From positions 108,038 to 172,037 of the forward strand of contig NZ_JOAI01000037.1 in NCBI RefSeq assembly GCF_000717715.1: a stretch of DNA of 64,000 bases. Reading direction: 5' to 3'. Positions 17,659 to 17,736 of the stretch are shown piece after piece (within the stretch, counting starts at the first letter, position 1; each line of letters begins with the position of its first letter). Position numbers and translations under genes: made by a program. This DNA comes from Streptomyces sp. NRRL B-24484. Its GTDB lineage: Bacteria > Actinomycetota > Actinomycetes > Streptomycetales > Streptomycetaceae. The notes beneath the pieces are model-generated. The model worked only from the letters and a program-made list of their open reading frames with translations. It ran no database searches and was not told where the DNA came from.

Positions 17659-17736
17659 GGCCCGGCCACCAGGGGGGAGGGCGGCCGGGCCGGGTACGGG
17701 GGACGGGGCGGGAACCGCCTCGTCGGAACGACCATA
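17659..17736 (-). ncRNA. C-rich-loop hairpin element, copy 1 (small RNA candidate)
   Basis: Read on the minus strand: TATGGT (complement of 17731-17736) resembles a -10 hexamer. It is followed by GAGGCGG-TTC-CCGCC, a C-rich CCGTCCCC, and a 33-nt hairpin (17659-17691) with GGCCCGGCC arms and a loop containing CCCTCCCCCC. The layout matches the copy at 58711-58789 in order, spacing and most bases. Two C-rich stretches within about 80 nt recall the actinobacterial 6C RNA class; that assignment is inference. It could instead be a mobile terminator-like repeat. Confidence 0.45.

Follow-up and report, generated by a model that had tools for sequence, protein, structure and literature searches.

The described RNAs that most resemble the element analyzed here are the 6C/B11 RNA of Actinomycetota (RF01066), the alpha-r14 small RNAs of Alphaproteobacteria, alongside which the cuckoo RNAs of these bacteria are named as a related kind, and two sets of small RNAs from Streptomyces. 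6C RNA carries a run of C residues in both loops (PMC4046766). The B11 loops reportedly pair with ribosome-binding sites, with repression persisting when either loop alone was mutated (PMC10470900). The alpha-r14 small RNAs keep an anti-Shine-Dalgarno motif in their loops while the stem sequences differ (PMC10746234). The Streptomyces sets, scr5583/sar2652/svr5279 and scr1434/sar6912/svr1031, are expressed small RNAs with a C-rich terminal loop (PMC3765725).

We compared these systems with a two-hairpin element that occurs twice in the window, the stretch of 64,000 nt from Streptomyces sp. NRRL B-24484 analyzed here. Two hairpins and a six-C loop make the element similar to 6C/B11 RNA; by contrast, 6C gives a single match in the genome, whereas the window family has many copies, one C loop, and no Rfam match. 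A C-rich loop kept while the stems differ in sequence recalls alpha-r14. However, CCUCCUCCC stands in each of the three alpha-r14 hairpins, whereas the window family has one such hairpin with variable C-rich loops; membership in alpha-r14 was rejected because only hairpin 2 is C-rich, with the consensus CUCCCCCC. The Streptomyces small RNAs share with the element a C-rich terminal loop and the bacterial family, but they are common to three Streptomyces species, whereas our model R2 (below) matched one genus only among 200 family genomes; these RNAs are set apart here by description. Judging by its anatomy, the two-hairpin family may work like 6C and alpha-r14, but it is multicopy, lies mostly near chromosome ends, and shares an upstream box. 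A search by title and abstract start, with subscription journals mostly outside it, found no published description of the family.

A preliminary description of the window had reported a 33-nt plus-strand hairpin that recurs ≈41 kb away between different flanking genes. Both copies read as described, and their neighbors indeed differ: 9-nt arms GGCCCGGCC and GGCCGGGCC enclose 15 nt, followed on the 3' side by GACGGGGCGG, ACCGCCTCG, and GAACGAC(C/G)ATAC. BLAST of the whole genome with copy 1 returned copy 2 at E 5.9e-18, beyond chance. In plus-strand letters the loop is GGGGGGAGG; the C-rich loop and TATnGT are confined to the minus strand of both copies, and we therefore read the element on that strand. 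The conserved unit exceeds the extent first given, spanning 17656-17769 and 58708-58822. Its minus-strand order in each copy is a GCGCGCC box, 26 nt, a -10-like TAnnGT, a short hairpin (hairpin 1), and a strong hairpin with a CUCCCCCC loop (hairpin 2). Scores below are from model R1, built from nine copies, or model R2, built from 17 sequences and extending up to the GCGCGCC box.

17656..17769, minus strand: copy 1, whole unit; R2 match of 73.9 bits, E 8e-9 per genome, for a sequence that is in the R2 training set of 17
17763..17769, minus strand: copy 1 GCGCGCC box, exactly 26 nt ahead of TATGGT
17731..17736, minus strand: copy 1 TATGGT, -10-like, from sequence, box line-up, and box profile
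17702..17724, minus strand: copy 1 hairpin 1, from folding (z -3.40)
17658..17692, minus strand: copy 1 hairpin 2 with CTCCCCCCT loop, from folding and covariation
58708..58822, minus strand: copy 2, whole unit; R2 match of 93.0 bits, E 4.6e-12 per genome, likewise for one of the sequences behind R2
58816..58822, minus strand: copy 2 GCGCGCC box, from the line-up on TAnnGT
58784..58789, minus strand: copy 2 TATCGT, -10-like, from sequence and the line-up on TAnnGT
58754..58778, minus strand: copy 2 hairpin 1, which alone folds no better than shuffles (z -0.30)
58710..58744, minus strand: copy 2 hairpin 2 with CTCCCCCCT loop, from folding and covariation
48508..48614, minus strand: possible degenerate third member, with TAAGGT and C5 in hairpin 2, lacking a GCGCGCC box

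The stretch at 48508-48614 may be a degenerate family member or a chance match (33.6 bits, E 0.18 with R1; 29.9 bits, E 0.23 with R2, per genome). A gas-vesicle-protein-like gene, named by eye, lies near it at 49347-49778. Upstream of an Rpf-like gene (18024-18719; transglycosylase plus LysM), a block at 17880-18024 has a further similar counterpart before copy C87a, upstream of 3990 in L055, beyond the element itself. Next to copy 2, on the plus strand at 58400-58690, a LysE-transporter-like stretch (named by eye) runs across two frames and has the look of a gene remnant.

BLAST of the whole genome with copy 1 gave four more clear members, copy 2 included, and two short weak matches. Scanning the genome with models built from the copies, as proposed in the preliminary description, yielded more homologues, with five matches for R1 and eight for R2 at E<=1e-3. 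Weak R2 matches (E<=1 in 48 of 70 genus genomes) were not counted as members; the 35-member sets used below do take in the doubtful stretch at 48508 and weak R2 matches such as G070 7970k (E 0.22). G059 (L128), which has no boxes and overlaps a gene, was removed from all counts after that of gene overlap. Also removed were G000:C12:73423 (L131), where the sequence forms no comparable hairpin, and G024 8816k and 8937k, judged to be terminal-repeat twins from their equal scores and equal distances to the ends. Since R2 contains the boxes, members found with it are biased towards them, and most members past the first 18 came from the box-containing model.

These first 18 members, which came from BLAST, R1, or a sequence pattern run over species-representative genomes, were aligned on TAnnGT. 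GCG stood exactly 33 nt ahead of TAnnGT in 16 of the 18, and GCGCG in 12; the exceptions to the GCG spacing were G002 C629, with a shifted box, and the window stretch at 48508, without one. The searches behind these members used no sequence farther than ≈9 nt upstream of TAnnGT, except for one BLAST query that brought in G024 36k, where the box lies inside the match. Moreover, three members that R1 barely sees (L055 10456, L055 10656, and L061 10382, at 28.7, 36.3, and 26.0 bits) retain the box, the spacing, and two hairpins despite a different sequence. In a profile of 33 members, for which TAnnG(T/C) was required and from which C77 and G044 7779k were omitted for lacking it, the two boxes were prominent and most of the stretch between them was not. 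C occurred at -2 in 32 and at +6 in 30 of the 33 members, although neither position was required. No recognizable -35 box was seen upstream of TAnnGT.

Covarying stems had been named in the preliminary description as support for an RNA, and hairpin 2 alters its sequence while remaining paired. In the 17 sequences, 98.9% of 182 cells were paired, with both-side changes at 6 of 11 pairs; for each of five measures, 0 of 500 shuffles reached the observed value (pairing in slid controls was 22-51%), although the members are related, so that shuffle and cell counts overstate independence, and related sequences can exceed shuffles without structure. Hairpin 1 alone folded with a mean z of -1.05, whereas stretches taken upstream in the same loci averaged -0.08 (p 0.0004, 35 related members); hairpin 1 is weak, with z near zero, in several members, copy 2 among them, and its loops, such as UUC and UGU, have no C run. 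Conserved RNA secondary structure was thus found by covariation for hairpin 2 and more weakly for hairpin 1. Under strand-neutral scoring, the minus-strand reading gave 20 G-U versus 5 A-C cells in hairpin 2 and 33 versus 23 in hairpin 1, sums over 36 rows that include one misanchored row (a Kitasatospora indigofera plasmid member) and whose cells are not independent.

In 23 of 35 members the hairpin-2 region contains a run of five or more consecutive C residues, compared to a C5 or G5 loop in 7 of 152 other strong hairpins from the same loci. The run is retained where the arms differ entirely (G024 8497k and G044 5684k), and in C87a it lies partly within the hairpin-2 stem. A C5 run is missing from 12 of the 35, among them all four members in G056 and the C87b/C77/G015 379k group, and among distinct R2 matches at E<=1e-3 outside the training set, three of seven have a C run and four do not. 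The C-rich loop is typical of the family, not universal.

A further possibility is that the family works at the DNA level, in which case the repeat would bind a protein or be mobile (REP/MITE-like) and its palindromes would act as DNA. Its copies are dispersed, patchy in distribution, and mostly near chromosome ends, a likely member sits on a plasmid, and transposase-like genes (named by eye) lie beside two copies (G015 379k and G056 90k). However, the wobble pairs are strand-biased, the C loop is on one strand only, and the copies are divergent rather than identical, and we consider a DNA repeat unlikely.

The preliminary description had also raised a terminator repeat, with stems that do not covary and that lie only after stop codons. 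Sites of the family overlapped no gene predicted by a simple codon-usage gene caller in 35 of 36 cases, and the copies occupy unrelated intergenic places. Relative to the element, the 5' and 3' neighbors of 35 copies were oriented same/opposite in 12, same/same in 9, opposite/opposite in 6, and opposite/same in 8. At least one neighbor therefore reads towards the element in 27 copies, as would suit a strong GC hairpin ending neighboring transcription in one or both directions; copy 1 faces the 3' end of a kinase gene and copy 2 that of the LysE-like remnant, and arms of the GGCCCGG type are also present in 10 of the 152 other hairpins. By contrast, the 8 of 35 copies without an inward-reading neighbor are about the quarter expected from random orientation, which suggests that ending neighboring genes does not explain placement. 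Moreover, hairpin 2 covaries, no U-run follows it on either strand in copies 1 and 2 as read directly, and a terminator leaves the two upstream boxes, hairpin 1, and the C loop unexplained. The terminator-only reading is thus disfavored by neighbor orientation, and we judge it distinctly unlikely.

Alternatively, the element could belong to the gene downstream of it, as a 5' leader, an attenuator, or a short open reading frame. Several G024, G044, and G002 copies are followed by an orphan small gene on their own strand, 26 of 35 copies have an NTG codon 15-35 nt past TA (at +21 in 10 of those), and a GGAG-like purine-rich stretch occupies +13 to +17. However, the element was upstream in only 4 of 30 fetched orphan-gene loci, two of them terminal-repeat twins, and on this count we rejected an orphan-gene leader; two further orphan-gene matches beyond the 30 (G024 8644k and G002 C210) do have the element upstream. 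The downstream gene is oppositely oriented in 18 of 35 copies. Peptides from the NTG codons range from 15 to >200 residues, and copy 1 and C22 have no NTG; a short reading frame in hairpin 1 was rejected because no peptide sequence is common between subfamilies. Overall, this alternative appears very improbable. The orphan small gene itself, exemplified by L061 8522-8992 and its relatives, has conserved cysteines, has 35 matches spread over 21 of the 70 genus genomes, and gave no match to Pfam.

The likeness to 6C RNA that was noted at the outset held for the C-rich loop and failed for family membership. In the scan with the Rfam 6C model that had been proposed, the window contained no match at the gathering score, at which alone copy 2 was compared with Rfam, and copy 1 gave none even at E 10; no Rfam 15 family of any kind matched the 64,000-nt window at the gathering score. 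The sole 6C match in the genome, its canonical 6C RNA, lies elsewhere than the window copies, at G000:C31:60139-60216 (53.6 bits), and R1 scored this RNA at 20.5 bits (E 0.22). A divergent 6C member would account for the C6 loop, the two hairpins, and the actinobacterial host. Nevertheless, membership was rejected on three tests (model match, C run in both loops instead of one, and 6C locus), leaving this alternative almost no probability.

We infer that the genus of the matching genomes is Kitasatospora. At E<=1e-3, R1 had matches in 5 of the 70 genomes from the genus and in 5 of 394 from the family, in 1 genus of 17. With R2, 8 of the 70 genus genomes gave matches at E<=1e-3 and 10 did so at E<=0.01; at E<=0.01 it also matched 9 of 200 family genomes drawn, again in 1 genus of 17. 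The two-hairpin family is apparently restricted to this genus. The sequence pattern, run over one genome per species (84,980 species), gave ten stretches, seven of them in three Kitasatospora strains, of which five were already members by other searches. All seven have a C run of at least five, although the pattern did not demand it. By this pattern, copies are present in records of Kitasatospora sp. DSM 101779, Kitasatospora sp. MBT63, and K. paracochleata. The three stretches outside the genus (L064, L069, and L072) lie in or partly in predicted genes and lack a C run, as does the sole viral match (L133), and all four were rejected.

Of the 15 distinct matches at E<=0.01 on contigs >5 Mb, 13 lay within 700 kb of an end (17% of length; binomial p 7e-9), and nine of ten matches at E<=1e-3 lay within 12% of the half-length from a contig end; these figures equate contig ends with chromosome ends, and matches may not be independent where regions are duplicated. 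At a kinase locus shared with G070, identity in 40-column windows was 0.65-0.90 in the element and 0.85-0.90 in most of the kinase end, whereas the spacers gave 0.33-0.60. In this one orthologous pair, the element is conserved about as coding DNA and the surrounding spacer is not. The copies thus form a repeated, intergenic, structured unit that has two boxes at fixed spacing and is constrained at one orthologous locus.

The reading that we favor, with a probability of roughly 60%, is that the copies are small-RNA genes in their own right, encoded on the minus strand of the window, and that they make up a new multicopy small-RNA family. The homologues, the covariation of hairpin 2, the fixed box spacing, and the G-U excess support the initial view of a small-RNA-like element on the minus strand with a promoter-like box and a C-rich loop. 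From these sequence features we infer transcription, RNA ends, an activator, targets, and repression. The GCGCGCC box, 26 nt, and TAnnGT would form an activator-dependent promoter, and an RNA of ≈70-75 nt would start at or just before hairpin 1. A start ≈7 nt after TAnnGT would place the GCGCGCC box near -45 to -39, a position that could suit a class II activator. Hairpin 2 would be the 3' end of the RNA and would display the C-rich, often CUCCCCCC-type loop. This loop may pair in trans with G-rich ribosome-binding sites and so repress translation, as reported for 6C/B11 RNA, a step that rests on analogy and to which we give somewhat less than even odds. The copies would have spread together with chromosome arms that are open to exchange and would have diverged into several subfamilies, of which some lack the C run.

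More speculatively, and with considerable doubt, the elements could be fast-diversifying RNA-only genes with a dedicated promoter type and a putative regulator on Kitasatospora arms and plasmids, in which different loops under one control signal form an anti-Shine-Dalgarno repressor set that possibly serves the arms or plasmids and not the host. In our judgment, a small-RNA family with many copies, a common promoter signature, and an apparent restriction to one genus would be unusual for filamentous actinomycetes. The loci, strand, and predicted RNA ends given here allow direct testing, and C-loop elements of this kind are separated from 6C RNA. Should the shared boxes and the concentration of copies near chromosome ends be borne out, the family would link arm turnover to RNA regulation and point to a putative regulator.

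A likely member with a shorter first hairpin lies near an ssb gene on a 58.6-kb linear plasmid of K. indigofera (L132, about 3970-4065); it was recognized by eye, and R2 gave no match there. Two divergent members stand in tandem ≈200 bp apart at L055 10431-10747 on an 11.8-kb contig, which also carries genes for a pentapeptide-repeat protein and for a helicase that has helicase-associated domains.
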